The notes beneath the pieces are model-generated. The model saw only the letters and a program-made list of their open reading frames with translations, did not search any database and was not told where the DNA came from. A program made the position numbers and the translations under genes. Of a stretch of 12,073 bases of DNA, positions 1 to 12,073 are shown one piece after another. The stretch lies in contig JAFSTZ010000059.1 in NCBI GenBank assembly GCA_017445525.1, positions 1 through 12,073 of the forward strand, read 5' to 3'. Position 1 is the stretch's first letter, and the number at the start of each line of letters is the position of its first letter. Source of the stretch: Eubacterium sp. GTDB lineage: Bacteria > Bacillota > Clostridia > Lachnospirales > Lachnospiraceae.

Positions 1-263
1 GCTATCGCACTCCATCTGGCTTCCTCGGGCACAAAAAAGATATTATCCATAGTATAGGCATCTCTCTCGTCCTCGAATCCGTCACCTTCTTCCACAAGTT
101 CCTGATACCTCTTGTCAAATGCCGCAGATATATATCTTAAGAATATTAACCCTATAATGACCTTTCGATACTCTGCTGCCGGGATATGTCCCCACAGTAC
201 GCAAGCAGCATCCCAAAGTTGCTTTTCAAATCCAATGTTTGCATTCGTTTTCTTTTCTGCCAT
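1..263 (-). CDS. hsdM: Type I restriction-modification system methyltransferase subunit (HsdM), N-terminal part, truncated by window edge
   Basis: The visible 87 codons begin MAEKKTNANIGFEKQLWDAA and continue with a helical stretch (about residues 11-60) containing LWGHIPAAEYRKVIIGLIFL and RYISAAFDKR. An acidic linker and MDNIFFVPEEARW follow. This is the characteristic N-terminal helical bundle (HsdM_N) of the adenine-specific DNA methyltransferase subunit of type I restriction-modification systems. That subunit pairs with the HsdS specificity subunit and the HsdR nuclease. The AdoMet-binding and NPPF catalytic motifs would lie off the left edge, so whether the gene is intact cannot be judged. 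The ATG at 261-263 is preceded on the minus strand by AAAGGAG six bases upstream, which fixes the start. It is transcribed away from the symporter gene, and hsdS/hsdR would be expected to the left of the window. Family assignment is strong; gene completeness is unknown. Confidence 0.92.
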   Translation of the reverse strand, partial: MAEKKTNANIGFEKQLWDAACVLWGHIPAAEYRKVIIGLIFLRYISAAFDKRYQELVEEGDGFEDERDAYTMDNIFFVPEEARWSAI

Positions 264-317
264 TCCTTACTCCTTTATATCGTACATCTTGTAATCAGAT
301 AAACTGACCCAAATACC

Positions 318-346
318 ATTATACCTCTGATCGCCATAAGGCGCAA
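318..346 (-). promoter_or_regulatory. Sigma-A-type promoter for hsdM
   Basis: On the minus strand, TTGCGC (341-346) and a perfect TATAAT (318-323) are separated by exactly 17 bases. The predicted start near 311 gives a leader of about 48 bases before the hsdM ATG. This arrangement implies that the 83-codon open frame overlapping this region is promoter and leader DNA, not coding sequence. Confidence 0.75.
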
Positions 347-431
347 GTGCTTTGTCGGTTGTTTTACTTTTGATGAGCCAACTATACCAAACCCATAACA
401 ACAAAATAACAACAGATCGGGAAAAATCCGT

Positions 432-473
432 AAAAAAAGCCCGAAAGGAGCGCGTAAAATCGGGCATTTTTTT
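432..473. terminator. Bidirectional rho-independent terminator between divergent genes
   Basis: A stem GCCCGA (439-444) / TCGGGC (460-465) with a 15-base loop is followed on the plus strand by A and seven T (467-473). On the minus strand it is followed directly by seven T (complement of 432-438). Both orientations therefore meet the hairpin-plus-U-tract rule. It lies between two divergently transcribed genes, where no terminator is needed for either. It may insulate against antisense transcription or end a short unannotated RNA. Confidence 0.7.
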
Positions 474-533
474 ATCATAAACCATCACTTCACCATATCG
501 TATACAAACACTGGACACTCTGCATTCATTAAT

Positions 534-559
534 AAAAGTCTTGCATTTGCAAGGCTTTT
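534..559. promoter_or_regulatory. 12-bp-arm dyad over the -35 element (candidate operator)
   Basis: The left arm AAAAGTCTTGCA (534-545) and right arm TGCAAGGCTTTT (548-559) are inverted repeats with one mismatch (T539 against G554) and a 2-base centre. The dyad covers the whole -35 element and the upstream half of the spacer of the symporter promoter. This position is typical of a repressor site. The binding protein cannot be named from the sequence. Confidence 0.5.
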
Positions 560-569
560 GTCATATAAT
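541..569 (+). promoter_or_regulatory. Sigma-A-type promoter for the symporter gene
   Basis: TTGCAT (541-546) and perfect TATAAT (564-569) are separated by 17 bases. Transcription would start near 576, leaving a short leader with AAAGGAG eight bases before the ATG at 603. The -35 element lies inside the dyad at 534-559. Confidence 0.75.
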
Positions 570-602
570 TGACTTTGGTATCATGGGAAAGGAGAGTACA
601 GA

Positions 603-2261
603 ATGAACGACCGTTACGAGATCCCCGCTAAGCCGAAGAACATAGAAAAGGCTGTCAGGCATATAGATGAGCTGCTGTCAGCACGCAACATTTCTTCAAA
701 GAAAAAGACCAAGTCGATACTGATAGCGGAGGAGACCATCGCAAGGCTCATAGAGCATGCAGATGAGAGCACCGACCTTGTCATAGAGTCCCATGGTATA
801 TTTGGCAATATAAATCTAAGTCTTAAAAGCAGAGGTAGCTCCTTTGATATTGACGATATAGAGAATCATTTGCTGTTTGAAGGCGATCCAAGTGAGGATG
901 GCACGGAAAACGATGTCATACACAGATTTGTTGACAGGGTTTTCTGGGACAGGCTCTCCATCAGGAATCATAAAGGTATAAACCACGCACAGATAAAGGT
1001 GACCAAGTCTGCTTACAGCGGGATCCTCTATACACTATTAGCGCTTGTTGCGGGTATACTTATCGGGCTGATGCTCAAGTTTTTTGCATCTGAGGATATA
1101 TCTTCGGGAGCAAGCGAGTATGTTTTCACACCGGTATTTACTATATTTATGAATGCGCTCAAGATGATGATAGGTCCGCTGGTGTTCTGCTCCATAGCAT
1201 CGAGCATAGCTGATTTTACTGATATCAAAGCGCTTGGAAAGATAGCTATCAAGGTCGGGGTCGCTTATGTTATCACTTCGGTTGTTGCCATCGCTGTCGG
1301 ATATCTGGTGTCATTTTTGCTGCCGGCAGGAAATCCCGATCTTATACAGGCAGTAGGGGATCAGGCATCGGGCTTAGTGAGCGCCGGCGAAACCACGGAT
1401 ACGTCCATACTGGGCACGATCGTAGGGATAGTGCCGTCAGATATCATATCACCTTTTATGAACAACAATATGCTGCAGCTCATCTTCCTGGCAGTCGTAC
1501 TCGGAGTGACAGGGGCATCGCTTCACAACAGGATACCCGGTATAAGAAATGTCCTCTCTGTCATGAACAAGGCATGCTCTGCCATAGTTGCGTATATCGT
1601 AAAGTTTGTACCGGTGATGGTCATCTGCTCCATGGCAAAGATGATGCTGAGTATCGATATCGAAGATCTTAAGGATCAGTTTGCCTGGGTGCCGATAAAT
1701 TATCTCGGATGTATCATCATGCTGTGTTTTTATGCCATACTGCTGATTGTTGTCGGAAGGATAAATCCGCTGACTTTTTTTAAAAAATTCTCTCCTGCCA
1801 TGCTCACGGCATTTTCGATGAATTCGAGCAGTGCCGCGCTTCCGACATCTCTTGCGATGTGTGATAAGCTTGGGATCTCGCGAAGGATCAGTTCTTTTTC
1901 CATACCGCTGGGTGCGACCATCAATATGGACGGTTCGTGTATCACACTGATGATTAGTACCTTTTTTATGGCAGGGATATACGGAGTATCGATAGACGGC
2001 AGTTTGCTGACATCCTTACTGATCTCTGTTATGGCGTTGTCTTTAGGCTGTCCGGGGATACCCGGGGCGGGTATGGTCTGCATGACTATCCTGTTTCCCC
2101 AGTTTGGAGTGCCGGCTGATGCCGTGGCTCTTGTTATGGGGGTCTATCCTCTGATCGGCATGATCCAGACTGCGACCAACGTTACGGGAGACGCAGTAGT
2201 TACCACGATCATCGCCAGACAGGAGAAGCTTCTGGATCTTGAGAAATACAATTCTAAATGA
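603..2261 (+). CDS. SLC1/DAACS-family cation symporter with N-terminal degenerate anti-sigma-type ATPase domain
   Basis: Residues about 137-540 are a sodium- or proton-coupled dicarboxylate/amino acid symporter of the DAACS (SLC1, glutamate transporter) family in the cell membrane. Visible signatures are the serine-rich hairpin SMNSSSAALP (405-414), NMDGS (441-445) in TM7, the HP2 motif GIPGAG (485-490) and NVTGD (526-530) in TM8. Family members are usually about 400-450 residues. The extra 135 or so at the N terminus are soluble and resemble the GHKL ATPase fold of RsbW/SpoIIAB-type proteins: LIAEETIARLIEHA (40-53) matches the N-box region, with Arg at the usual Asn, and SRGSSFDIDD (76-85) resembles the next motif. 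Key ATP-binding residues look lost. By alignment from memory, substrate-contacting positions equivalent to GltPh D394 and R397 are Gly519 and Gln522, so glutamate or aspartate is an unlikely substrate. The ATG is preceded by AAAGGAG. The gene ends 101 bases before the next start. Confidence 0.88.
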   Translation: MNDRYEIPAKPKNIEKAVRHIDELLSARNISSKKKTKSILIAEETIARLIEHADESTDLVIESHGIFGNINLSLKSRGSSFDIDDIENHLLFEGDPSEDGTENDVIHRFVDRVFWDRLSIRNHKGINHAQIKVTKSAYSGILYTLLALVAGILIGLMLKFFASEDISSGASEYVFTPVFTIFMNALKMMIGPLVFCSIASSIADFTDIKALGKIAIKVGVAYVITSVVAIAVGYLVSFLLPAGNPDLIQAVGDQASGLVSAGETTDTSILGTIVGIVPSDIISPFMNNNMLQLIFLAVVLGVTGASLHNRIPGIRNVLSVMNKACSAIVAYIVKFVPVMVICSMAKMMLSIDIEDLKDQFAWVPINYLGCIIMLCFYAILLIVVGRINPLTFFKKFSPAMLTAFSMNSSSAALPTSLAMCDKLGISRRISSFSIPLGATINMDGSCITLMISTFFMAGIYGVSIDGSLLTSLLISVMALSLGCPGIPGAGMVCMTILFPQFGVPADAVALVMGVYPLIGMIQTATNVTGDAVVTTIIARQEKLLDLEKYNSK

Positions 2262-2284
2262 TAAATCGTTACTGTTCACGCCCG

Positions 2285-2320
2285 GCAGACTGTCCGGCAG
2301 GGAGTTTTAGGACAGTCCGC
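2285..2320 (+). other. Intercistronic hairpin
   Basis: GACTGTCC (2288-2295) and GGACAGTC (2310-2317) are perfect inverted repeats. They extend by a further GC/GC pair across one mismatch, with a 14-base loop. No T-tract follows, so this is not a standard terminator. It lies in the 101-base gap between the symporter and the secreted cystatin-like gene and may protect or process the mRNA. No convincing independent promoter was seen in this gap. Confidence 0.45.
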
Positions 2321-2362
2321 AGGCCAATATATATGGCAACAAAAACCAAGGAGGTAACACCT

Positions 2363-3280
2363 ATGCAGAAAAAAGTTGTAGCACTGTCAAAAAGAGCCGT
2401 AGCAACAGTTCTTGCCTGCTCTCTGATGATCGCAGCAGCTCCGGTGAGCATCTCAAAGGGCGCAGCCAAGCAGCCAAAGCTCAACCAGAAGAAGATCATA
2501 GTTATGGAAGGTCTGTCTGAGACTCTGACAGTCAAGAAGAACGGATTCACCATCAAGTCAACCAAGTGGTCTTCTGCTGACAAGAAGATCGCCACCGTGA
2601 AAAAAGGCGAGGTTACCGGAGTTTCCGAAGGAAAGACAACAGTTACGGCAAAGGTTAAGGCTGTAGCCAAAGGACAGAAAAAAGCAAAGACCTATACCCT
2701 CAAGTGCAAGGTAACTGTCACCCCTGAGGAAATCGTCGGCGGATGGGAATTCGCAGATGATCCGACGATCACGGAAGAAGTGAAGAATTATGTGGCAGAG
2801 TTGAAGGGTCCAAACCACTCATTTGAGGCAGTAGCGCTTCTTGCAACTCAGGTGGTTGCAGGTATGAATTACTGCGTGCTTGCCAAGAAAAAGACAGCAG
2901 ACAAGTCCACATTTACAGTGATTGAATTCTATGTGAACACCGAGCAGGTTGTAGAGCTTATCGCTGACTGGGCAACGACAGTAGAGACCGACAAGGAAGG
3001 CTTTACTGCTCCCCCTTCTCCGAAAATTCCTGAAGAGTATTACGCCAAACTGAGCGAGATTGTATCCAAATATGATAAAGCAGCGCTCACGCCTGTAGCA
3101 ATGGTTGAACTGAATACTACAACCGGGCAGGGCCTTCTTATCTGTCATACAGTTCCGAATGGATCCGACTTCGGTGACTGTCCGCCGTATAGCTTTGTAT
3201 GTGTTTCAGTAGATCAGGCTGCCGGTACAGGTAAGCTGGAAAAGGTTGATTATCTCACCGAGATTTTGGCCGGAGAGTGA
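2363..3280 (+). CDS. Secreted protein: Ig-like (Big_2-type) domain plus tandem cystatin-like region
   Basis: The 305-residue product starts MQKKVVALSKRAVATVLACS, a Sec signal peptide ending near residue 30-35. Residues about 37-120 form a bacterial Ig-like domain of the Big_2 type, with WSSADKKIATVKKGEVTGVS as the hallmark stretch. Next comes VGGWEF (125-130), a helix (about 136-147), then ATQVVAGMNYCVLAK (161-175). In cystatins (papain-family cysteine protease inhibitors) a Gly near the N terminus and a QxVxG loop form the inhibitory wedge, and both are present here. Residues about 242-297 look like a second copy of the fold, but with TTTGQG in place of QVVAG. The role is inferred: extracellular inhibitor or binder of cysteine proteases. 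The chosen ATG has AAGGAGG eight bases upstream. A longer in-frame start at 2258 has no such site and would bury the signal peptide. The gene is probably cotranscribed with the symporter. Confidence 0.8.
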   Translation: MQKKVVALSKRAVATVLACSLMIAAAPVSISKGAAKQPKLNQKKIIVMEGLSETLTVKKNGFTIKSTKWSSADKKIATVKKGEVTGVSEGKTTVTAKVKAVAKGQKKAKTYTLKCKVTVTPEEIVGGWEFADDPTITEEVKNYVAELKGPNHSFEAVALLATQVVAGMNYCVLAKKKTADKSTFTVIEFYVNTEQVVELIADWATTVETDKEGFTAPPSPKIPEEYYAKLSEIVSKYDKAALTPVAMVELNTTTGQGLLICHTVPNGSDFGDCPPYSFVCVSVDQAAGTGKLEKVDYLTEILAGE

Positions 3281-3309
3281 TCAAAATAGGTATATAAGTA
3301 TAAGAAAGA

Positions 3310-3348
3310 ACGCCATCGCCCCGACACCATGGGTGATGGTGTTTTTTT
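3310..3348 (+). terminator. Rho-independent terminator of the symporter/cystatin-like unit
   Basis: CGCCATCGCCC (3311-3321) pairs with GGGTGATGGTG (3331-3341), allowing two G-U pairs, with a 9-base loop. Seven T follow (3342-3348). It lies 30 bases after the stop codon of the cystatin-like gene. Confidence 0.85.
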
Positions 3349-3357
3349 ATAAATAAC

Positions 3358-3386
3358 AAGGCGGCTCCCTTAGGAACCGCCCTTAT
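3358..3386. terminator. Terminator between convergent genes, mainly for the alkylsulfatase
   Basis: GGCGGCTCC (3360-3368) and GGAACCGCC (3373-3381) form a stem with a CTTA loop. On the minus strand it contains a G-U pair and is followed by TTGTTATTTAT, serving the alkylsulfatase operon. On the plus strand CTTATTTTT follows, so it can back up the preceding terminator. Confidence 0.7.
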
Positions 3387-3423
3387 TTTTAAACTACTAT
3401 ATAATATGTATTTACTGAAACCG

Positions 3424-5751
3424 TCACGGCTCGATGATGTTGAAGTCCTGAGTCCATGTTGTGATATGGCCATAGAAACGCTCCGGAACCGTTGTATCTC
3501 CTGTTACACTCAGTGCAGCTTTTACCTGATCACCCTTGCCTCCCATCATAGCGAGAAGATGCTTCTTCTCACAGGTGATGGTAGCCATCGCATCCGATCT
3601 GTTCTCATCTGCGTATACAAGCAGTGCGCCTGACTTTCTCTTGATATAGAACTTCTCTTTTGTATCTGTCAGGTTCAGGTTAAATGTTATATCGTCATCC
3701 TTTACCTCTGTAGCATCAGTTGCGATACCGATAAAGTCTAACATCATCTTGGCTGTCATCGATCCTCTGACATCCTCACCGCCGCCTGCTTTTCTTGCCG
3801 TGATGGCGAGGTTGCCTTTTCTCAGCTCTCTGGCACCTGTCAGATAGCAGTTTCTCCATGTGCCGCTCTCAGCCTGATATCCCAGCTGCTCAAGAGCATC
3901 TGCACAGAGATATCTCGCTTCTTTATTCTTCGGATCTGCAAATACAAGCTCTTTGGTTATCTGCGCTACCCACTGATAATCACCCTTTGCAAAATCCTCT
4001 TTTGCCTTTTTGATAACAGCATCCGCGCTTCCCAAATACTCAACAAGCTTTTTTGCTGTCTCACTCGGCGGAAGCGGATCCAGATTTACGGGGTTCGCAT
4101 CATACCAGCCGAGATATTTCTGATAAACTGCTTTGATGTTATGTCTGAGGGTTCCGTAGTACTGTCTTGTATACCAAACCTTGTTCAGCTTATCAGGGAA
4201 TGTGATCATGTTTGATATCTCATTCGGCGTATATCCGAGGTTCGCATAGTGCAGAGTCTGATCATGTATATACTGATATGCTGCTGCAGTATTCTCCATG
4301 TAGTCTTTGATGTTCTCTCTGCCCCAGTGTGGCCAGTTGTGCGACTGGAACACTACATCGATCTTGTCACCATACTTGTGCTGCGCTTCAAGTATATATC
4401 TTGCCCAGTCTGATGCATCTCTGACCTCAGCTCCGCGGAGTGTGTAGAGATTGTGCATCGTTCCGGTACAGTTCTCTGCCAGCCACATAGCGTTGTACTT
4501 CGGGAAGTAAGCGTTCATCTCTGCAGGCGCCTCTGTCCCCGGTGTCAGCTGGAACTGCACCTCGAGTCCGTCGATATTGATAGTCTCATCCTTGGTCACA
4601 TCGTAGGTAGGTGCCAGAAGTCCGGTATTACCTACAGACTGTCCGAGGCCGATACCCATCGCGAGACTTCCATGCTCACCTGTCTCGATGAGAGTTCCGT
4701 ACTGATACTGTGCACGACGACTCATCGCACCGCCGGCATATACATTCTCCGATACAGCATGCTCCAAAAATCCCTCAGGAGCGATGACGGCCGTCTTGCC
4801 TTTTGCGATCTCTTTTTTGTGACTATCCCAATCCTGAGACTTGGTCGTCACTTGCTGCGGTGCCGTAGCCTGATCGATCAGACCGTAGATACCGCCGTAG
4901 TGATCCACATGAGAATGTGAGTACAGTACAGCCTTGATATCCAGCTTGTCGAGCTTCAGAGTATTCTTAGCATAGTCCTCCATCAGTGCTTTTGCAGCTT
5001 CCATATCCTGCTTGCACATCAGCACGTCAAACACCAACCAACCGTTGTCAGTACGGATAAATGTAGCGTTCGCCATGTCATATCCTCTGACCTGATAGAT
5101 GCCGGGACATACCTCAAAAAGTCCTGCATAGGAGTTGTACAGGGTGTTTCTGAACAGGCTCGGATTGATGGTTCCCGGAAGCTTGCTCTCCCCCTTATCT
5201 TCCAGCTGTTTGATGAAGTCAAATGCAGCAACATCCCATACGAGACCGCCCTGGTCATCCTTGATCACCGGAGCCTGAAGTGAACCAATGAGACCCTTTA
5301 ATGCATTCTCTTTCTCAGATTTGTCATTGAAATCCAGAGTGTCGAGCCACGCTGCATTTTTCTTGGTCGTGATATCGGTCGCATCCTTGTTGGAAGCGTT
5401 CAACGCCTCAAGAACTGTGACCTTTACTGTCTGCTTGTAGGTCTTTTCCTTTGATGACTTCTTTGCTTTGATCTTGACCGTGAGCTTTGCCTTCCCGGCA
5501 GATACACCCTTGATCTTGATCTCCTTTTTACTTGCGCTCGCCGTTGCCACTTTTGACTTGTCCGTGGTAACCTTGACAGACTTGATCGTAAAGCCGTTTG
5601 TCTTGATCTTCAGCTTTGCGGTCTTTCCGACATTTACCTCGGCCTTGTCCGCTACTGACGGCTTTGATGCCGCTGATGCGTCGGTCACATCAACCGGAAC
5701 ACATACAAGCATAAGCGCCAGTACCAGAAGTAACGATACGATCTTCTTCAT
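3424..5751 (-). CDS. Secreted MBL-fold alkyl/aryl sulfatase (SdsA1-like) with N-terminal Ig-like domain
   Basis: Alkylsulfatases of the SdsA1 type hydrolyse alkyl sulfate esters to alcohol and sulfate using two zinc ions in a metallo-beta-lactamase fold. All seven expected ligands are visible: His279, His281, Asp283 and His284 in SHSHVDHYGG, Glu407 in PGTEAP, Glu426 in AENCTG and His471 in QSHNWPHWG. The Glu-Glu-His spacings of 19 and 45 match SdsA1 as I recall it. APEGFLEHAVSENVYAGGAM (324-343) and TMHNLYTLRGAEVRD (431-445) are also family signatures. The helical dimerisation region (about 480-640) and SCP2-like C-terminal domain (about 655-775) complete the usual architecture. A signal peptide (1-28) and an Ig-like domain (about 30-115), which contains NGFTIKS, are added in front. 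The start has GGAGG nine bases upstream. The gene begins 51 bases after the ClC gene, so cotranscription is likely. The natural substrate is unknown. Confidence 0.93.
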   Translation of the reverse strand: MKKIVSLLLVLALMLVCVPVDVTDASAASKPSVADKAEVNVGKTAKLKIKTNGFTIKSVKVTTDKSKVATASASKKEIKIKGVSAGKAKLTVKIKAKKSSKEKTYKQTVKVTVLEALNASNKDATDITTKKNAAWLDTLDFNDKSEKENALKGLIGSLQAPVIKDDQGGLVWDVAAFDFIKQLEDKGESKLPGTINPSLFRNTLYNSYAGLFEVCPGIYQVRGYDMANATFIRTDNGWLVFDVLMCKQDMEAAKALMEDYAKNTLKLDKLDIKAVLYSHSHVDHYGGIYGLIDQATAPQQVTTKSQDWDSHKKEIAKGKTAVIAPEGFLEHAVSENVYAGGAMSRRAQYQYGTLIETGEHGSLAMGIGLGQSVGNTGLLAPTYDVTKDETINIDGLEVQFQLTPGTEAPAEMNAYFPKYNAMWLAENCTGTMHNLYTLRGAEVRDASDWARYILEAQHKYGDKIDVVFQSHNWPHWGRENIKDYMENTAAAYQYIHDQTLHYANLGYTPNEISNMITFPDKLNKVWYTRQYYGTLRHNIKAVYQKYLGWYDANPVNLDPLPPSETAKKLVEYLGSADAVIKKAKEDFAKGDYQWVAQITKELVFADPKNKEARYLCADALEQLGYQAESGTWRNCYLTGARELRKGNLAITARKAGGGEDVRGSMTAKMMLDFIGIATDATEVKDDDITFNLNLTDTKEKFYIKRKSGALLVYADENRSDAMATITCEKKHLLAMMGGKGDQVKAALSVTGDTTVPERFYGHITTWTQDFNIIEP

Positions 5752-5775
5752 AAACTACTACCTCCATTGTTTTTT

Positions 5776-5796
5776 ATTATATCTGACAGGAGTCAG
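5776..5796 (-). promoter_or_regulatory. Possible internal -10 element and small dyad before the alkylsulfatase gene
   Basis: In the 51-base gap there is a perfect minus-strand TATAAT (5776-5781), preceded by the dyad CTGAC-TCCT-GTCAG (5783-5796). No acceptable -35 element is found at 16-18 bases, so this may be only a regulated or weak internal promoter, or a short mRNA hairpin. Confidence 0.3.
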
Positions 5797-5802
5797 GTTT
5801 AT

Positions 5803-7062
5803 CTACGGCTCCGGATCAGCAACCTCCTCCTGTGATATTCTCCCTCCGACGATCCCGCCCAGAGCAGCTGCCAGAAGTATGGGGAGCAGCATCCTGACCG
5901 GAAACATAAGCATCAGCAGCATGGTGACTGCCGCCGGCTTTTTCATCTGTGCGCCAAGCGTGGCAGCCGTAACAACTGCCGCCGCAAATACCACATGCGA
6001 TGATGCTCCGTCACCAAACAGCAGCATACATACGCCGAATCCTCCGCACACGCACGCAAATATCAACGGGAAGAAATGTCCTCCCCGAAAACCGAACTGT
6101 ATCGAGCATGTAGTAAGCAGGCACTTTAACAAAGCAACTACTATCAGAAACAGCGGAGCATAAGTGCCAAACTCTGCCGGCAGTTCTCCCATCTGCTCCT
6201 CTCCCGAGAAAAGGATGATAGGCAGATACATCGCAGCTATACCGATCAGCACGCCGCAAAGTATACCTCGTGCTATCGGCGGGATGATCCCCGCTATCTT
6301 TTTTGCGATCCACTCACAGCCTTCAAAGAAGAGATACAGTATCAACCCCACCGGAATATACAAGAGCATCAATACATAATCCTGCCACGCAGGCGCAGTG
6401 AACTTCATCCTCGGCAATCCCCCCAGAGCTGCACCGAAAAAGTGACGCAAAAGCGCGATAACTCCGAAAGCGGCACCGATGGCGATACCATACAGAACCA
6501 GCTTGATAGGCTTTGGTATGGACGCTTTTTCTCTTTCCTCTGATGACCCAGGCTCCTCGACTGCCAGGATACCAAAAAGCGGTGCATGGAAGATGACTCC
6601 CAGCGTGATCGCCTCTCCTATCTCCGAATATCTGTCCTTTTCTTTTTTTGCATACTTGATGTTATCGCCGACCCAGGAACACAGTCCCGCTATGATACCG
6701 GTCAGCCCCGCCTCCGGACCAACGCTTCCTGCAAAGAGAAGTGGCAGGAATGCGAGGATCAGAAGTGCCGGCATATGCTTATAAGGATAAGAACCGGTCT
6801 TCTTGATCTTGCCCATAACTACGGGAAGCTCCTCGGGATAATCACCCAAAAAGTGGTGAAGTATACCGATGATAAGCCCTCCGACTGTACACAGGATAAG
6901 CGGATACCAGCTAAAATCAATGTTTGATGGGATATCCACCCACAGCGCTTTTGTACAGATAGAAAGCAGTCGCAAAAAGCCCCAGACCAGTGCGCCTGCG
7001 ATAGCTCCGAGCACTGCAGTAAACAGTATCATCTTGATCTCATTCAGTACTCTTTTCTTCAT
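5803..7062 (-). CDS. ClC-family anion channel/transporter with an altered gating motif
   Basis: This 419-residue polytopic membrane protein belongs to the voltage-gated chloride channel (ClC) family. It carries GSVGPEAGLTG (112-122), corresponding to the GxEGP selectivity motif, and GFRGGHFFP (324-332), corresponding to the GxFxP motif. About ten hydrophobic segments span the sequence and no C-terminal CBS domains are present. In E. coli ClC the external gating glutamate is the third residue of GREGP; here that position is Val114, with a Glu two residues after the second Gly (Glu117). An EE pair (169-170) sits near the position of the internal proton glutamate. It could be a channel or an unusual exchanger, and the anion is unknown. 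The ATG overlaps the stop of the upstream phosphatase gene (ATGA), which indicates translational coupling. Only a weak AGAAGAG lies upstream. The alkylsulfatase gene follows 51 bases later. Confidence 0.88.
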   Translation of the reverse strand: MKKRVLNEIKMILFTAVLGAIAGALVWGFLRLLSICTKALWVDIPSNIDFSWYPLILCTVGGLIIGILHHFLGDYPEELPVVMGKIKKTGSYPYKHMPALLILAFLPLLFAGSVGPEAGLTGIIAGLCSWVGDNIKYAKKEKDRYSEIGEAITLGVIFHAPLFGILAVEEPGSSEEREKASIPKPIKLVLYGIAIGAAFGVIALLRHFFGAALGGLPRMKFTAPAWQDYVLMLLYIPVGLILYLFFEGCEWIAKKIAGIIPPIARGILCGVLIGIAAMYLPIILFSGEEQMGELPAEFGTYAPLFLIVVALLKCLLTTCSIQFGFRGGHFFPLIFACVCGGFGVCMLLFGDGASSHVVFAAAVVTAATLGAQMKKPAAVTMLLMLMFPVRMLLPILLAAALGGIVGGRISQEEVADPEP

Positions 7063-9248
7063 AACTCTTCTCTTTCATTACTTCCGTTATATGTGATGGA
7101 CAGCATCGTCAGATCATCGAACTGCGGTGCCTCACCTACAAATATATCAACCTGCTCCTTTACAATCTCGAGCAGTCTCTCCGGCTTCGCTCCCGGCTCG
7201 AGATTCAGCGCCTCTGTCATCCTGTCAATCCCGTACAGCTCTTCATCCGCGTTTGTGGCCTCGGGGACACCGTCAGTATACAGAAACAGCGTATCTCCGG
7301 GGTCGAGCTTGAATGTCTGATCGGTATGCTTCATATTGGGCGCTAAGCCCATGACAAATCCGTGCTGATCCTTGATGATCTCAAAATCTTTATCCTTACG
7401 GCGGATGGCGGGATACTCATGTCCCGCGTTTGCTTCGATGAGCTCTCCGGTTGAGATGGTGAGTATAGAGAGAAATGCCGTAACAAAAAGCTTTTGCTTG
7501 TTGTTCTCACAAAGTCTGTTATTAACCGCCGTCAGTATCTCGGCCGGTGTGCCTCCCATCATGGTTCTGTCGTGGATGGACGTCATGGCCCTCGCCATAA
7601 ACATGGCCGCCGGGACTCCCTTACCCGAAACATCCGCTATAACCAGCGCCAGATGGTCATCATCTATCAGGAATATATCATAGAAATCACCGCCGACTTC
7701 CTTGGCCGGGTTCATGGATGCGATAACCTCGAACTCATGTCTGTCCGGATATATGGGGAATACGGTCGGCAGCATATCCACCTGGATCATAGTCGCGATG
7801 TTGAGCTCAGCTCCGATCCTTTCCTTCTCCGCCTGGATATGCATGATCTCTTCGATGTAGTTTCTGGTCTGCTCGGACATGTTGCTAAAGGCGTTTGCGA
7901 GTACTTCTATCTCATCACCTGTCTTGTATATGTCTTCTACCTCAAACTCCAGGTTGTCACCGGTGATCGACTCAACCTTTTTAGTCATCGCATCTATAGG
8001 TCTGATGATCCTTCTTGCAAAATAGATCGAGGTGATGATCGCATTCAGCAGGAGTATCAGCAGTACGATCAAAGTCAGATTCGATGAAGCTTTAAAGTTT
8101 TCATTGAACTTATCTCTGGTCTCTGTTGCGACCATATCCACTTTGCCCAGCAGAGCCTCAGTCTCGTCGTTCAGCTCATCCTCGGGTATGAACATCAGCA
8201 AAGTCCACTTTACAGTCGATACTGGAGCGTAAGCAGCATAATACTTGATTCCGTTCATCGTCAGCGATTTAAATCCTGTCTCACCGAACATCGCAGTCTG
8301 TACCAGATGTCTCACTTCGTTGCTGCTTGTCTCATAAGCCGAGATGGACATCTCACGATCCATCGCCAGATCACCCTCCTTTATCGGAGAATAGATGATC
8401 TGAGCCTGGTCATTTATAAGAACAGAGAAACCGGTTTCTCCGGCTTTTGTCTCAGAGAGCACCTGCTGAAGTGTATCCAGCTTCATGGATCCCTCAAGCA
8501 CACAGACCAGCTTCCCATCAACGTAGATCGGTGTACCAAAAACAACCTCTGTCAGATTGTAGAAAAAGCTATGGATAGCCGGAGAAAAGAACTGTTGCTT
8601 GGTCTCTTTGGCTCCTTTATACCACGGTCTTTGCCTGGCATCGTAGTCCTTGATAGACCCGTCTTCCTCGAACTTCTGATCGGCCATAGAGTCCACAACC
8701 AGAGACACGCCGCTGGGGAGTGCAACGATACAATCCATGGTATACTCGTTGTTCCCTTCGACAATCTCCTTCATCATCGGTTCGAGATTGGCTATTTTTC
8801 TCAGGATACTCAATGATTCTTTATCAGCACCCTTTTTGACGTCCGCCATCATCAGCTGTGCTGATATCTTGCCTCCGTTCTTTTTATCGGGAGGAAGAAT
8901 CTCCTTGTCGACAAACTGATCCGGATGGTCAAAGATAGTCTGTATCTGCATAGCAAGCACGTTAAAATCGTGCTTCAGCGTCCAGAACTCGCCGTCAACA
9001 TTTTTAGCATTGGCCTTTACCACGGAAAGCAGATGATTCTCAGTCTCAGCCATAAGTGTTTTCTGTGACTGATCTTTGATAACCTCTGCCTGTCGTTTGC
9101 CGTTTTCCTCGGTCATCATCGACAGTGATCGCAGCTGTATGATACCGATCACCGCAAAGGCTGAGATTGCAACCACAACCAGCACAAAGCATAGATTGAA
9201 AATCTTGCTCCCCAAACCACCGAATATCATCTTTCCTATCTTTTTCAT
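7059..9248 (-). CDS. Membrane sensor serine phosphatase: dCACHE-HAMP-SpoIIE (PP2C-type)
   Basis: The 729-residue product has TM1 (about 16-38), an extracellular dCACHE-type sensor (about 40-385, with YDARQRPWYKGA at 202-213), TM2 (about 391-410), a HAMP domain (about 411-465) and a short coiled linker. A SpoIIE/PP2C phosphatase domain (about 500-720) completes it. Phosphatase motifs are EVGGDFYD (517-524), IADVSGKGVPAAMFMA (537-552), YTDGVPEATN (657-666) and FDDLTML (710-716), which supply the metal-binding aspartates. Proteins of this design usually dephosphorylate an anti-sigma-factor antagonist in response to an external signal. No STAS-domain partner is encoded in this window. I chose the ATG at 9246-9248 because AGGAG lies five to six bases upstream. 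The earlier in-frame ATG at 9294-9296 falls between the -35 and -10 elements and so would not be transcribed. The gene is first in an operon with the ClC and sulfatase genes. Confidence 0.93.
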   Translation of the reverse strand: MKKIGKMIFGGLGSKIFNLCFVLVVVAISAFAVIGIIQLRSLSMMTEENGKRQAEVIKDQSQKTLMAETENHLLSVVKANAKNVDGEFWTLKHDFNVLAMQIQTIFDHPDQFVDKEILPPDKKNGGKISAQLMMADVKKGADKESLSILRKIANLEPMMKEIVEGNNEYTMDCIVALPSGVSLVVDSMADQKFEEDGSIKDYDARQRPWYKGAKETKQQFFSPAIHSFFYNLTEVVFGTPIYVDGKLVCVLEGSMKLDTLQQVLSETKAGETGFSVLINDQAQIIYSPIKEGDLAMDREMSISAYETSSNEVRHLVQTAMFGETGFKSLTMNGIKYYAAYAPVSTVKWTLLMFIPEDELNDETEALLGKVDMVATETRDKFNENFKASSNLTLIVLLILLLNAIITSIYFARRIIRPIDAMTKKVESITGDNLEFEVEDIYKTGDEIEVLANAFSNMSEQTRNYIEEIMHIQAEKERIGAELNIATMIQVDMLPTVFPIYPDRHEFEVIASMNPAKEVGGDFYDIFLIDDDHLALVIADVSGKGVPAAMFMARAMTSIHDRTMMGGTPAEILTAVNNRLCENNKQKLFVTAFLSILTISTGELIEANAGHEYPAIRRKDKDFEIIKDQHGFVMGLAPNMKHTDQTFKLDPGDTLFLYTDGVPEATNADEELYGIDRMTEALNLEPGAKPERLLEIVKEQVDIFVGEAPQFDDLTMLSITYNGSNEREEL

Positions 9249-9271
9249 ATCTGCTCCTAACCGTGAAAAAC

Positions 9272-9315
9272 CCTTTACTTTTCTATAATACAGCATTTCT
9301 ATAGAAATGTAAAGG
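9272..9315. repeat. Nested inverted repeats spanning the operon promoter (candidate operators)
   Basis: The outer arms CCTTTACTTTTCTATA (9272-9287) and TATAGAAATGTAAAGG (9300-9315) are 16-base inverted repeats with one mismatch and enclose the whole core promoter. A perfect 16-bp palindrome CATTTCTATAGAAATG (9294-9309) fills the spacer and overlaps the -35 element by two bases. The half-site TTTCTATA occurs three times: at 9280-9287, at 9296-9303 and, inverted, at 9300-9307. This geometry suggests a dimeric repressor binding cooperatively over the promoter. Confidence 0.6.
9285..9313 (-). promoter_or_regulatory. Sigma-A-type promoter of the phosphatase-ClC-sulfatase operon
   Basis: On the minus strand TTTACA (9308-9313) and TATTAT (9285-9290) are separated by 17 bases. 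Predicted initiation is near 9278, giving a leader of about 30 bases. The spacer consists largely of a palindrome described in the overlapping repeat entry. Confidence 0.72.
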
Positions 9316-9393
9316 TTTTTTAAGGAACAGAGGAAAGGCTGAAATCTATGACGAAAACCTGATTTTATTCGTAAAACTTCGCGGTTTCCAGCT

Positions 9394-9855
9394 TTATTTG
9401 TTATTTACCAGATAATCGAGAAGCCCCCTGCAACCCTCGTCAACATCTATATATGTCTCTTCAAAGTTGCCGGTGTACCATGGATCAGCGATCTCCTGAC
9501 CTTTTCTATCAGTATAATCAAGAAGAGATGATACCTTCCCTTCCGGGTCGTCTCCGATGATATTCATGATATTTTTGATATTCCATCTGTCCATCCCGAT
9601 GATATAATCATACTTATCATAATCATCACGACGCAGCTGAACTGCCCTGTGGCTCCGCATGGGGATACCCATCTCTCGCATCTTTCTCACAGTCCCCGGA
9701 TGCGGCCCGTTGCCGATCTCCTCCCTCGACGTCGCCGCCGAATCGATATAAAAACTGTCCTTGAGCCCGGCCTGATCGACCATATACTCCATAACAAACT
9801 GAGCCATGGTAGAACGACAGATATTGCCGTGGCAAATGAATAGTATTTTAATCAT
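9394..9855 (-). CDS. Low-molecular-weight protein-tyrosine phosphatase
   Basis: The 153-residue product starts MIKILFICHGNICRS, containing the catalytic CX5R loop (Cys8 to Arg14). The general-acid Asp124 lies in DPWYTG, the standard position for this cytoplasmic family. Length agrees with the usual 150-160 residues. Relatives dephosphorylate protein tyrosine, or protein arginine in the YwlE branch, and some act on tyrosine kinases of capsule production. No kinase is nearby, so the target is unknown. The start at 9853-9855 matches the conserved N terminus of the family, although the GAGG upstream is about 12 bases away, farther than ideal. An in-frame ATG at 9912 would add 19 unconserved residues. 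It follows the cyclophilin-like lipoprotein gene after 92 bases with no clear promoter or terminator between, so readthrough from that gene is likely. Confidence 0.94.
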   Translation of the reverse strand: MIKILFICHGNICRSTMAQFVMEYMVDQAGLKDSFYIDSAATSREEIGNGPHPGTVRKMREMGIPMRSHRAVQLRRDDYDKYDYIIGMDRWNIKNIMNIIGDDPEGKVSSLLDYTDRKGQEIADPWYTGNFEETYIDVDEGCRGLLDYLVNNK

Positions 9856-9947
9856 AATGCTATATAACCTCACATATCTTGTTATAGTACTATTTTTCAG
9901 ACCTTCGCCCATGTTTACAGAAAGTCGGTCACTTCACAGATTGCCTA

Positions 9948-10508
9948 CTACTCCGTGTACTCCGCCATGATTTCGGCATCAACATCCTTGCCGGATTTCA
10001 ATTTTTCAAACAGTTCATCCTTCACATCGAGTGGCTCACTGATCGAACCTATCCTCGTATAGCCAGCGGTGTTCTCCTCGTAAAGAATTACCAACGTGTT
10101 TCCCTGATAAAGAACAATATCTCCCGGCTTTGCCGTTATCTGCTCATCCCCATCAGTCGTCAATTCCCACGGAAGTGCCGCATTCTTCTCGAAGCCGCCA
10201 TAATCTGACATCTTCAGTTTGAGCGGCTCGCTGCTCACCTTTTGGAAAAATGCATTCGCCGTACTGTTTGCATCCGTATCCACATTGTATCTCTCGCCAT
10301 CAATCATCAAACTCACAATCACAGCTGGCGTCATATCCTCTATCCCTTCGCCCTGATCGACCATTCCTTCATCCTCCGCCACACCGGGATCCATCGTAGT
10401 ATCCGCCTGATGCGAAATCACTGTGTCCTCCGATCCACAGCCAACACAAAGCACGGCCATCATAATGACCGCAACTATCCTCCGCCCCAAATATCTTATC
10501 ACCCGCAT
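9948..10508 (-). CDS. Lipoprotein with cyclophilin-like domain
   Basis: The 186-residue product has a short basic N terminus, a hydrophobic stretch, and LCVGC, a slightly atypical lipobox with acylated Cys near residue 24. An acidic low-complexity linker of about 35 residues follows. The remaining part (about 64-160) resembles the bacterial cyclophilin-like fold (Cyclophil_like-type domains): a beta strand with IDGERYNV, ANAFFQKV, LKLKMSDYGGFEKNA, then the tail KPGDIVLYQGNTLVILYE and YTRIGSI. That GDIVLYxxNTLVIFY-TRIG pattern is the recognisable part. Such domains are often found as stand-alone or secreted proteins of unknown ligand, and peptidyl-prolyl isomerase activity should not be assumed. 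The ATG at 10506-10508 has GGGGG six bases before it and is preferred to the GTG immediately upstream. Expected location: outer face of the cytoplasmic membrane. Confidence 0.78.
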   Translation of the reverse strand: MRVIRYLGRRIVAVIMMAVLCVGCGSEDTVISHQADTTMDPGVAEDEGMVDQGEGIEDMTPAVIVSLMIDGERYNVDTDANSTANAFFQKVSSEPLKLKMSDYGGFEKNAALPWELTTDGDEQITAKPGDIVLYQGNTLVILYEENTAGYTRIGSISEPLDVKDELFEKLKSGKDVDAEIMAEYTE

Positions 10509-10551
10509 CACCTACCCCCGGACAGAATGATGTCTCATTTGTGTCGTTCTC

Positions 10552-10580
10552 ATTATAACACCAATATCTTTTCTTCGCAA
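10552..10580 (-). promoter_or_regulatory. Sigma-A-type promoter of the lipoprotein gene
   Basis: Minus-strand TTGCGA (10575-10580) and perfect TATAAT (10552-10557) lie 17 bases apart. Initiation would be near 10545, about 37 bases before the ATG. The tyrosine phosphatase gene downstream probably shares this promoter. Confidence 0.75.
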
Positions 10581-10639
10581 CTTGATTATCTCTATTGACA
10601 AAAACCGGACATACAAAATCAATGAACCTCTATATTTCT

Positions 10640-10753
10640 TTAATAGAATATATATACACGATTTGTCTGTACATAGGTGCGTTCCTGTCCGTCTCCTCCG
10701 GTCGCATTTAGCTTGATGCTGATCTCCAAAGTAGTCGAAGTACTGAGAATTCC
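10640..10753 (-). pseudogene. Out-of-frame C-terminal remainder of the secreted protein
   Basis: In the frame one base away from the upstream gene, 37 codons run from GILSTSTTLEISIKL to NRVYIFY before a TAA at 10640-10642. The alternating hydrophobic/polar pattern looks like real beta strands and continues smoothly from VKEIKTNSKK of the upstream frame. The in-frame tail of the upstream ORF (EFSVLRLLWRSASS) does not. The switch falls in a five-base A run on the minus strand (10754-10758); one extra A would restore a 240-residue protein. Confidence 0.55.
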
Positions 10754-11361
10754 TTTTTGGAGTTTGTTTTGATCTCTTTTACAAAGCTTTTGTCTCCAAC
10801 AACAGTTGAATCATATGTCCCTGTTTCCTGCAAAACAGCCGGTCCATATAAACAAGTTATTCGCTTCTCATAATTCTCATCCGGTTGTGCACCCGAATAA
10901 GTAATAACGTATTCTCTACTAAACTCAATAGGTCCACCTTTGTAGGAAAACTTCATGATATTTGAGTTTTTATATGGCTTTTCTATCACAAACTCTGCCG
11001 GATTGGCTTTTTCAAAAACATCCTGTTCTACAGACTCATCATAGTAGGTATAGTACGCTGTCAGAAGCTTTGGATCGTCAACCTCTTTGACATTGCCATC
11101 AGCGTCCGCATACTTAAATGACGTATAAACAGAGCTTGTCGTACTTCCTGCGACAAAATACTCTCCGCTGTTGAAGTCGGCGCCTTCCTTAATTGCGTAT
11201 TGACCGTCTTTTACGGTGAGACTGTCCGCAGTCGCCGCATACAAAGTATCTGCTTCAAATCCGTCCGCTGCTTTTGAAACATTACCCGCTGAGCTTATGC
11301 CGGCCATGGAAAAAATAACCGCTACAGCCGTGATCATAGTTACAATTCTTTTTATCCTCAT
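10708..11361 (-). CDS. Secreted protein of unknown function, probably frameshifted near its C terminus
   Basis: I do not recognise this family. The ORF encodes 217 residues beginning MRIKRIVTMITAVAVIFSMA, a clear signal peptide with probable cleavage around residues 26-32 (SSAGNVSKAA). The mature part is acidic and rich in Tyr, Thr and Ser, with a predicted mostly beta character (for example EYFVAGSTTSSVYTSFKYAD and EFSREYVITYSG). It has only one Cys in the mature region (ITCLYG) and no membrane anchor or cell-wall motif. The ATG at 11359-11361 follows GGAGG by six bases, which rules out the ATG four codons upstream as the main start. The last 14 residues of this frame look unnatural, and the adjacent frame provides a better continuation. 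The gene has its own promoter region, and no convincing terminator was found after it. Confidence 0.75.
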   Translation of the reverse strand: MRIKRIVTMITAVAVIFSMAGISSAGNVSKAADGFEADTLYAATADSLTVKDGQYAIKEGADFNSGEYFVAGSTTSSVYTSFKYADADGNVKEVDDPKLLTAYYTYYDESVEQDVFEKANPAEFVIEKPYKNSNIMKFSYKGGPIEFSREYVITYSGAQPDENYEKRITCLYGPAVLQETGTYDSTVVGDKSFVKEIKTNSKKEFSVLRLLWRSASS

Positions 11362-11405
11362 AGTATCCTCCAATCTGAAGCGTTGACATTTGTGACGCTC
11401 CTACA

Positions 11406-11456
11406 CAAAAAACATTATACCAAAACCACCATCTGATTAGGTGGTCTGCCAGACCA
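11406..11456 (-). promoter_or_regulatory. Extended -10 promoter with two overlapping palindromes, for the secreted protein gene
   Basis: On the minus strand TGGTATAAT provides an extended -10 (TATAAT at 11414-11419) without a matching -35. Where the -35 would lie there is a dyad ACCACC (11425-11430) / GGTGGT (11440-11445) with 9 bases between. It overlaps a perfect 15-bp odd palindrome TGGTCTGCCAGACCA (11442-11456). An activator or repressor site is the likely reading. On the plus strand the second palindrome is followed by GTTTTTG and could act as a weak terminator. Confidence 0.5.
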
Positions 11457-11636
11457 GTTTTTGTCACGCTTAGCCGGCAAAAAAAACAAGCGCTTTGTCA
11501 TCTCTGACCGGCAGAGCAGTTCAAAAGCTTGAGACCGGGGTTTTCCACAGCTACCCTTTTGGCATCTGCGAGCACATCCTGTAGCTCCTTTTGGGTTCTT
11601 TTCACGGATAGCCAAAATATTTTTTTAAAAAATGTG
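11457..11636. other. Gene-poor stretch between divergent genes, with a possible minus-strand coding relic
   Basis: Between the two divergent promoters, 180 bases contain no convincing gene. On the minus strand a frame closing at a TGA near 11500 reads VKRTQKELQDVLADAKRV followed by AVENPGLKLLN and CSAGQR. It resembles a genuine helical protein end, but it has no ATG and no ribosome binding site. Just beyond it a short ACAA/TTGT hairpin followed by eight T (minus strand, complement of 11479-11486) could be a weak terminator. Together these suggest the decayed 3' end of a gene or a small transcript. No known RNA family was recognised here. Confidence 0.3.
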
Positions 11637-11665
11637 TTGACAAATCAAAAGCCATGTTGTATAAC
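11637..11665 (+). promoter_or_regulatory. Consensus sigma-A promoter of the GntR-type regulator gene
   Basis: A perfect TTGACA (11637-11642) and TATAAC (11660-11665) are 17 bases apart. Transcription should begin near 11672, inside the adjacent operator, and gives a leader of about 110 bases. This is the strongest match to consensus in the window. Confidence 0.85.
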
Positions 11666-11686
11666 TGTATTAAGCACTTAATACAG
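11665..11686. promoter_or_regulatory. Perfect 22-bp operator overlapping the transcription start
   Basis: The arms CTGTATTAAG (11665-11674) and CTTAATACAG (11677-11686) are perfect inverted repeats around CA. The site begins at the last base of the -10 element and covers the predicted start, as expected for autorepression. YtrA-type GntR regulators commonly bind AT-rich palindromes in their own promoters, so the encoded regulator is the prime candidate. Confidence 0.75.
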
Positions 11687-11734
11687 CGGTACAAAAACAG
11701 CTGTGCTTGGAATGACGATTCCAAATAGTGCTTA
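11671..11734 (+). promoter_or_regulatory. Structured leader RNA of the GntR-type gene
   Basis: Within the leader TTGGAAT (11707-11713) and ATTCCAA (11718-11724) form a perfect 7-bp stem with a GACG loop. Outside it TAAGCACT (11671-11678) can pair with AGTGCTTA (11727-11734), making a multi-branched fold that ends about 30 bases before the ribosome binding site. No known riboswitch signature was recognised. Confidence 0.35.
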
Positions 11735-11781
11735 TCGCGCGAAGAAACAGATAATTACACATATCAAAGGAGGTACAGCCT

Positions 11782-12073
11782 ATGGCGTGGGACTTATCCG
11801 GCGAACGACCGATCTACATCCAGCTGGTCGAGCGCATCTCAAGACAGATCGCATCAGGCGCCTATAAGCCCGGAGACAAATTTCCGTCGGTAAGAGAGCT
11901 GGCGCTCGAGGCCGCGGTAAATCCAAACACTATGCAAAGGGCAATGGCTGCTCTGGAGGCTGATGGTCTGTTGATCACAAGCAGAACTTCAGGCCGCACG
12001 GTCACAGAGGATATGACGCTGATCGAATCAGTGAAAAAAAATATCGCAGTGAGCGAGTACAATAGTTTCTACA
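11782..12073 (+). CDS. GntR-family (YtrA subfamily) transcriptional regulator, truncated by window edge
   Basis: The visible 97 codons start MAWDLSGERPIYIQLVERIS. The winged helix-turn-helix follows, with GAYKPGDKFPSVRELALEAA (26-45), VNPNTMQRAMAALEADGLL (46-64) and the wing residues SRTSGRTVT (67-75). RPIYxQLxxRI at the N terminus and the short tail after the wing are typical of the YtrA branch. That branch has a small C-terminal domain of about 50 residues rather than a large ligand-binding domain. These regulators usually repress their own operon, commonly one with ABC transporter genes directly downstream, which would lie off the right edge. AAAGGAGG lies nine bases before the ATG. The perfect palindrome on the promoter fits autoregulation. 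The inducer is not predictable from the sequence. Confidence 0.93.
   Translation, partial: MAWDLSGERPIYIQLVERISRQIASGAYKPGDKFPSVRELALEAAVNPNTMQRAMAALEADGLLITSRTSGRTVTEDMTLIESVKKNIAVSEYNSFY

Follow-up and report, generated by a model that had tools for sequence, protein, structure and literature searches.

A degenerate RsbW-type domain fused to an SLC1 transporter in a Lachnospiraceae Eubacterium: a putative docking site for STAS proteins

Fusion gene, predicted fold and lost nucleotide site

The window analysed here is the whole 12,073-nucleotide stretch of Eubacterium sp. (Lachnospiraceae; assembly GCA_017445525.1, contig JAFSTZ010000059.1, positions 1 to 12,073, forward strand). Positions 603..2261 of its forward strand encode a 552-residue protein, in which a degenerate RsbW-like (GHKL/HATPase_c_2) domain is followed by an SLC1/SDF transporter, an architecture shared by its relatives. 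The transporter part was identified at residues 143–539 (1029..2219, forward strand) with the Pfam SDF (SLC1/DAACS) profile (E 3.1e-93; 313.3 bits at a cut-off of 27.9) and matches to Glt_Ph and GltTk; nearest by sequence were an aspartate transporter and Glt_Ph-type chains, and by structure comparison the model of the fusion matched Glt_Ph structures. Approximately 135–142 residues precede this domain, in agreement with the original prediction of about 135 soluble residues ahead of the transporter. The NMDG motif of transmembrane segment 7 (TM7; residues 441–444, 1923..1934, forward strand) is retained, as are Asn526 and Asp530 at the TM8 site (2145..2192, forward strand). As all four residues N441, D443, N526 and D530, which we take to bind Na+, are present, the protein probably transports. 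Gly519 and Gln522 stand in place of Glt_Ph Asp394 and Arg397, presumably (by numbering and role) the substrate residues of the acidic amino-acid, Glt_Ph-type proteins, so that the substrate is probably neither glutamate nor aspartate.

The N-terminal domain (residues 1–136, 603..1010, forward strand) was modelled with AlphaFold2 at a pLDDT of 88.7 and a predicted order of b-a-a-b-b-a-a-b-b; PDB matches of this model were SpoIIAB, RsbW and UsfX, and an anti-sigma (Bergerat-type) fold is thus predicted. In the full-length AlphaFold2 model, a predicted linker of four residues (135–138, 1005..1016, forward strand) leads from the last strand into the first membrane helix (139–161). SLC1 topology puts an N-terminal domain in the cytoplasm. 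Searched alone, the domain gave a weak Pfam HATPase_c_2 match (20.6–20.7 bits, cut-off 27.4, E 4.5e-4), which lies below the curated cut-off, and the motif reading therefore wanted further evidence.

Relatives were collected by scanning one genome per species, and the best 80 of 321 loci, here given L numbers, were retained. The domain was found in 77 of the 80, two Butyrivibrio loci being without it (L065, L066) and one being cut off (L107); among the 77, L105 is cut at the C-terminal end, L046 at the start, and L086 has a shortened frame (451 aa). Counts over 76 family members, 75 of them with distinct N-terminal rows, omit the two domain-less loci L065 and L066, L105 and L107 because contig ends cut them, and L086 for its short frame; they include L046. 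HATPase_c_2 was matched by 42/76 members at E ≤0.1 (best 2e-7), and in hhalign 130 columns of the family profile could be aligned to a set of five intact RsbW-like proteins (probability 97.7, E 1.9e-12). Homology of the domain to RsbW-type domains is thereby near certain. Annotation mostly misses it, with a HATPase_c_2 label on four of the 120 best relatives listed.

The motifs EETIARLIEHA (residues 43–53), SRGSSFDIDD (76–85) and DRVFWDRLSI (111–120), from which an anti-sigma-type ATPase fold had been proposed, are all present in the N-terminal part. By alignment with intact RsbW-like proteins from the host genome, in which EETIAR corresponds to EEIFVN and SRGSSFD to DSGTPYD, Arg48 (744..746, forward strand) occupies the place of the N-box Asn that binds the nucleotide and Mg. 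Asn is found there in 5/76 members, and the position ranks 79 of 140 by conservation. In the degenerate G1 motif SRGSSFD (residues 76–82, 828..848, forward strand) Ser replaces the G1 Asp, which is present in 0/76 members. The former ATP-lid region (residues 95–108, 885..926, forward strand) is without the GGLG of intact RsbW, and a G.G or GG pattern was seen in this stretch in 8/76. The original prediction of a catalytically dead ATPase-fold domain with an exchanged Asn and a poor glycine lid is supported by the predicted fold, the lost catalytic residues and the conserved fusion, and the domain is very likely dead as judged from its residues.

One feature of the N-box is retained. The acidic pair Glu43–Glu44 (729..734, forward strand), E44 standing at the place of the catalytic N-box Glu, aligns with RsbW Ser48–Glu49; Glu43 is invariant (76/76), position 44 is acidic in 76/76 (62 E and 14 D), and by conservation the two come 2nd and 6th among 140 positions. 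In both intact RsbW-like proteins from the host the motifs are preserved, and each of the two places is occupied by E. According to the available text on RsbW–RsbV, RsbW Glu49 touches the phosphorylated residue of RsbV, Ser56, and Ser48 touches Tyr53 (PMC7340262). For this comparison, RsbW residues were mapped as chain index + 4 to the published numbering, with which the letters of Arg23, Asp42, Lys44, Ser48, Glu49 and Tyr118 agree. Retention of part of the partner face along with loss of the ATP site would fit a docking module.

Distribution and ancestry of the fusion

The records of the relatives comprise Lachnospiraceae, Butyrivibrio, Oribacterium, Treponema and other Spirochaetia, Coriobacteriaceae, Oscillospiraceae and others, many being rumen metagenome-assembled genomes (MAGs). 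A first N-terminal profile was matched in 20/299 genomes of the same family and a deeper one in 38/391 genomes of the class; 18 regions fetched from the class matches held SLC1 fusions in some cases and intact RsbW, PP2C-RsbW, STAS-RsbW or MATE fusions in others. In 80 genomes of the same family, SDF scored over the cut-off 73 times; 65 of these matches fall in frames of ≤485 aa, some of them truncated at contig ends, and the other eight in frames of 521–566 aa, all of which carry the domain; the statement that DAACS transporters normally start with their first helix is in line with this. Three fusions were found in the host, namely that of the window and those on C26 (L002) and C289 (L003), and a fourth SDF gene of the host is truncated at the end of its contig.

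With midpoint rooting, a tree built from 141 SDF domains (five tips repeat the same gene; plain L150 is cut before its N-terminus) places the 31 domains labelled plain in one clade (0.996) and the window subfamily, 97 fused members plus L065 and L066, in another (0.945). Falling inside the fused clade without the domain, the two Butyrivibrio proteins L065 and L066 are natural controls for its function. Outside both clades fall divergent SLC1 fusions, observed at L003 (1450–3003, host C289), L020, L030 (= L149), L031, L132–L134, L138, L146 and L147; two label changes suffice on the tree. The four Na+-site residues occur together in 0/10 distinct divergent fusions, compared with 87/93 distinct proteins of the window subfamily, and judging from this loss the divergent fusions could be transporter-derived sensors.

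The nonsynonymous rate (dN) of the N-terminal part was below the synonymous rate (dS) in 10 of 11 pairs tested, e.g. 0.025/0.26 and 0.032/0.345; the pair of window and L032 gave 0.10/0.59 with dS saturated, and the eleventh pair, L053/L055, showed no silent change. N-terminal dN exceeded that of the SDF part in 9/11 pairs.

Linked genes, host toolkit and related fusions

STAS, RsbW or SpoIIE genes are linked to the fusion at L051, L084, L033, L097, L073, L147 and L023, and the window has a PP2C gene alone. At L051 (Butyrivibrio SIG341) one strand holds, in order, STAS (5193–5492), an open reading frame (ORF) of 122 aa, the fusion (5980–7635), intact RsbW (7662–8108), a small ORF and a dCache-PP2C gene (8509–10677). 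Interleaved with this cluster, several small ORFs having leaders of the VAGG/VSGG type and radical-SAM-like genes were observed (1572–3761, 8092–8490, 10696–11022), which by eye look like a cluster for a ribosomally synthesised and post-translationally modified peptide. The order at L084 is PP2C, RsbW, fusion; L083 shows this order too, but between RsbW and the fusion there is an ABC importer bearing a GHKL-like tail. A STAS gene lies 29 bp upstream of the fusion at L033, genes for STAS-AMP-binding proteins lie 24 and 36 bp from it at L097 and L073, and at L064 a MATE-HATPase_c_2 gene overlaps the end of the fusion gene. Immediately upstream of the fusion, a PP2C-RsbW gene was found at L147, of the divergent set, and at L023 (SDF E 7.9e-42, N-terminal domain E 2.6e-9).

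Linkage was counted in 705 kb of flanks at 78 loci, i.e. 77 of the 80 plus the window, with L065, L066 and L107 omitted; at L057 and L100 the gene caller had picked an antisense frame over the fusion, and the domain is present nonetheless. Expectations were derived from 131 SpoIIE and 120 STAS matches in 87.6 Mb of 28 genomes, one being the host and the others coming from 27 of the 80 loci, a non-random set picked by hand and including the linked ones. PP2C genes were seen 8 times near fusions (1.05 expected; P 1.5e-5 if independent) and STAS genes 5 times (0.97 expected; P 0.003). A partner-switching gene within 1.5 kb was found at 13/78 fused loci vs 0/29 plain SDF loci (P 0.012), or at 11/78 without two tandem fusions (P 0.025). 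The linkage looks real, yet is a minority trait.

In the window, the candidate circuit member is a dCache-HAMP-SpoIIE (PP2C) phosphatase gene (7059..9296, reverse strand; Pfam SpoIIE E 2.3e-45), similar to the PP2C near the L051 fusion (E 7.5e-220). It overlaps the start of a gene for a CLC-type chloride channel or transporter (5803–9296 for both, reverse strand), possibly a further transporter tied to this phosphatase.

The host assembly holds two STAS-RsbW pairs, with seven STAS matches, two intact standalone RsbW and 11 SpoIIE matches in all. It also encodes two MATE proteins whose tails match HATPase_c_2 over the cut-off, and one of these adjoins a PP2C. For SigB/F/G, no match was found in the host assembly (84.9% complete), not even the weak ones seen in the other 27 genomes; since the sigma-B/F/G model gave no match at all, the housekeeping sigma gene is probably missing from this assembly. 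Among the 27 non-host genomes, SigB/F/G exceeded the cut-off in six and in none of the remaining 21, SpoIIE matches were found in 26 and STAS matches in all 27. Most of the hand-picked set hence has a partner-switching system without evident SigB/F/G output.

RsbW-like domains were also observed on other transporters. MATE exporters with a C-terminal domain of this kind are encoded at L064 (7640–9397), L106 (9857–11653), L049 (1201–3027), L114, L115, L145 and L148; Pfam HATPase_c_2 was over the cut-off in L064 and L106 and weak in L049 (E 0.003), and most MATE fusions retain the N-box Asn, unlike the SLC1 type. A GHKL-like tail at the C-terminus was seen on amino-acid ABC importers that join SBP3, permease and ATPase in a single chain, or on an ATPase by itself, at L083 (3053–5905), L086 (2966–5869) and L148 (1320–2399). 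A local profile matched these tails at E 1e-5 to 6e-8; Pfam gave no HATPase in the L083 tail, for which 48 homologous proteins were found. The STAS-AMP-binding enzyme fusions directly adjoining the transporter fusion span 1543–3405 at L097 and 7723–9606 at L073, and at L049 and L106 large putative AMP-binding enzymes lie directly upstream of the fusion (by eye). Further observations are proteins that combine STAS with a C-terminus resembling intact RsbW and, in the middle, a putative APH-type kinase part (by eye), at L135 (3202–4809) and L145 (4640–6202), and, in a Treponema MAG, a stand-alone degenerate RsbW-like domain of 158 aa with, by eye, a membrane helix at its N-terminus (L108, 5438–5914, reverse strand), divergent from a transporter fusion.

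Proposed regulation, alternatives and known systems

The domain is read here as a degenerate RsbW/SpoIIAB relative that has lost its ATP-binding residues and would serve as a docking site for an unphosphorylated STAS protein that switches transport (probability about 0.58). A sensor SpoIIE-type phosphatase would remove the phosphate from the STAS protein, which, once free, would dock via E43–E44 on the cytoplasm-facing domain, joined to TM1 by the predicted four-residue linker, and so switch transport. Another RsbW of the cell, an intact kinase, would phosphorylate the STAS serine, whose phosphate the acidic pair would then repel, releasing the transporter. Kinase and effector would be separate proteins, as are RsbW2 (kinase) and RsbW1 (effector) of Mycobacterium smegmatis, the transporter taking the role that the sigma factor has there, and a phosphorylation-controlled protein would act on the transporter directly and not on genes. 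The STAS-type partner suggested by the original prediction gains support from the linked STAS/RsbW/SpoIIE genes at a minority of loci and from the acidic residues retained at the STAS-contacting place. What the analysis shows is homology, loss of the nucleotide residues, a retained acidic pair, a conserved fusion, a host equipped with the toolkit genes and linkage in some relatives; that STAS binds, that phosphorylation governs the binding and in which sense transport responds are inferred, and regulation of transport by STAS docking seems the likelier case.

Several points weigh against this. Among the RsbW residues that hydrogen-bond RsbV in the available text (Arg23, Asp42, Lys44, Ser48, Glu49, Tyr118; PMC7340262), Glu49 alone has a counterpart of like kind; the domain lacks Arg23 and Asp42, as does the intact host RsbW L113, and the acidic pair could be structural in role. 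The operon of the window fusion itself is without a partner-switching gene, and its link to the PP2C gene may be chance, because the latter lies 4.8 kb off on the opposite strand in a host with 11 PP2C matches. As L083, L084 and L086 look related, about six of the eight PP2C cases are independent (P 7.8e-4). Of the 13 linked loci, L085 is a weak opposite-strand match (E 7e-4) and two are the tandem fusions, and some of the seeds for the neighbour profiles came from linked loci, with Pfam confirming the key genes. At 65/78 fusion loci no partner-switching gene lies within 1.5 kb, L097 being counted here with the STAS end of the adjoining gene beyond that distance. The lack of a SigB/F/G match in the host assembly is weak evidence, since even sub-threshold sigma matches are missing.

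Alternatively, the protein could be a transceptor, with the transport cycle or substrate occupancy altering STAS (or RsbW) binding by the domain, so that nutrient status is fed into the SpoIIE/RsbW/STAS circuit. The loss of Na+-site residues in the divergent fusions, L003 of the host included, and the PP2C-RsbW genes directly preceding the fusion at L147 and L023 favour this. The window fusion, however, has kept all four residues and probably transports, and loss alone is no proof of a sensor, because one or more of the four are missing in 11/33 plain-labelled proteins as well (the 31 plus L065 and L066); the transceptor is considered unlikely. Still less probable is that the domain acts as a decoy which, rather than binding STAS, pairs with the intact RsbW kinases of the cell and tethers or inactivates them at the membrane. 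M. smegmatis RsbW3 interacts with RsbW1, a heterodimer being assumed by the authors in the available text (PMC7693655), and the predicted strand b1 and helix a1, the RsbW dimer face as described in the accessible part of PMC7340262, are present in the domain; such pairing would not need the acidic pair, which nonetheless ranks 2 and 6 at a STAS-contacting place. An inherited cap that aids folding or trimerisation of the transporter without a signalling role would be compatible with the 65 unlinked loci and with stability that, in the excerpts seen, can need SulP STAS domains (PMC8256260) and MlaB (PMC7367683), and is equally improbable given that the acidic pair is selectively retained while the nucleotide site decays, that related domains are fused to MATE and probably ABC transporters, and that the domain was lost in one branch of the tree only (L065/L066).

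Were STAS docking correct, extracellular sensors would exert fast post-translational control of uptake, a new route of regulation for SLC1 proteins. Many such anaerobes possess STAS and SpoIIE and no over-cut-off SigB/F/G (the 21 genomes above), and some STAS-only proteins have unknown targets according to the available part of a review (PMC8256260); one concrete candidate for such a target is a transporter with a dead RsbW domain. At slightly worse than even odds, the proposal may extend to an overlooked branch of partner switching with membrane-transporter outputs, in which pseudo-RsbW or RsbW-like domains sit on symporters (SLC1), exporters (MATE) and importers (ABC), STAS proteins are diffusible ligands controlled by phosphorylation and set by sensor phosphatases, and the SLC1 side branch lacking the Na+ site is a receptor that feeds this circuit.

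Compared with known systems, RsbW/SpoIIAB kinases (GHKL, HATPase_c_2) have the Asn, the G1 Asp and the glycine lid, whereas the window domain is without these, is fused to a transporter and falls below the Pfam cut-off. Glt_Ph and GltTk (SLC1/DAACS) share SDF, NMDG and the Na+-site Asn/Asp with the window fusion, have no N-terminal domain, and differ at the two positions where it carries Gly and Gln. In M. smegmatis, RsbW2 phosphorylates RsfB at Ser63, and kinase-inactive RsbW1 binds unphosphorylated RsfB but not the phosphomimetic S63E (PMC7693655, as far as the accessible text describes). The RsbW1/RsbW2/RsbW3–RsfB set resembles the proposal in splitting the kinase from a non-kinase effector; that effector controls SigF, while the one proposed here is a transporter. 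The STAS protein MlaB binds the transporter component MlaF directly; its partner is an ABC ATPase and not an RsbW-type domain, and the abstract names no partner-switching kinase (PMC7367683). The PII protein SbtB controls SbtA, and in the available texts both SbtB on SbtA (PMC10710835) and the STAS domain of SulP/SLC26 (PMC8256260) are cases of a signalling-type protein or domain acting on a secondary transporter, as proposed here. SulP/SLC26 proteins carry the STAS domain within the transporter and SbtA is bound by PII, whereas what is joined to the transporter in the window fusion is the counterpart of the STAS partner.
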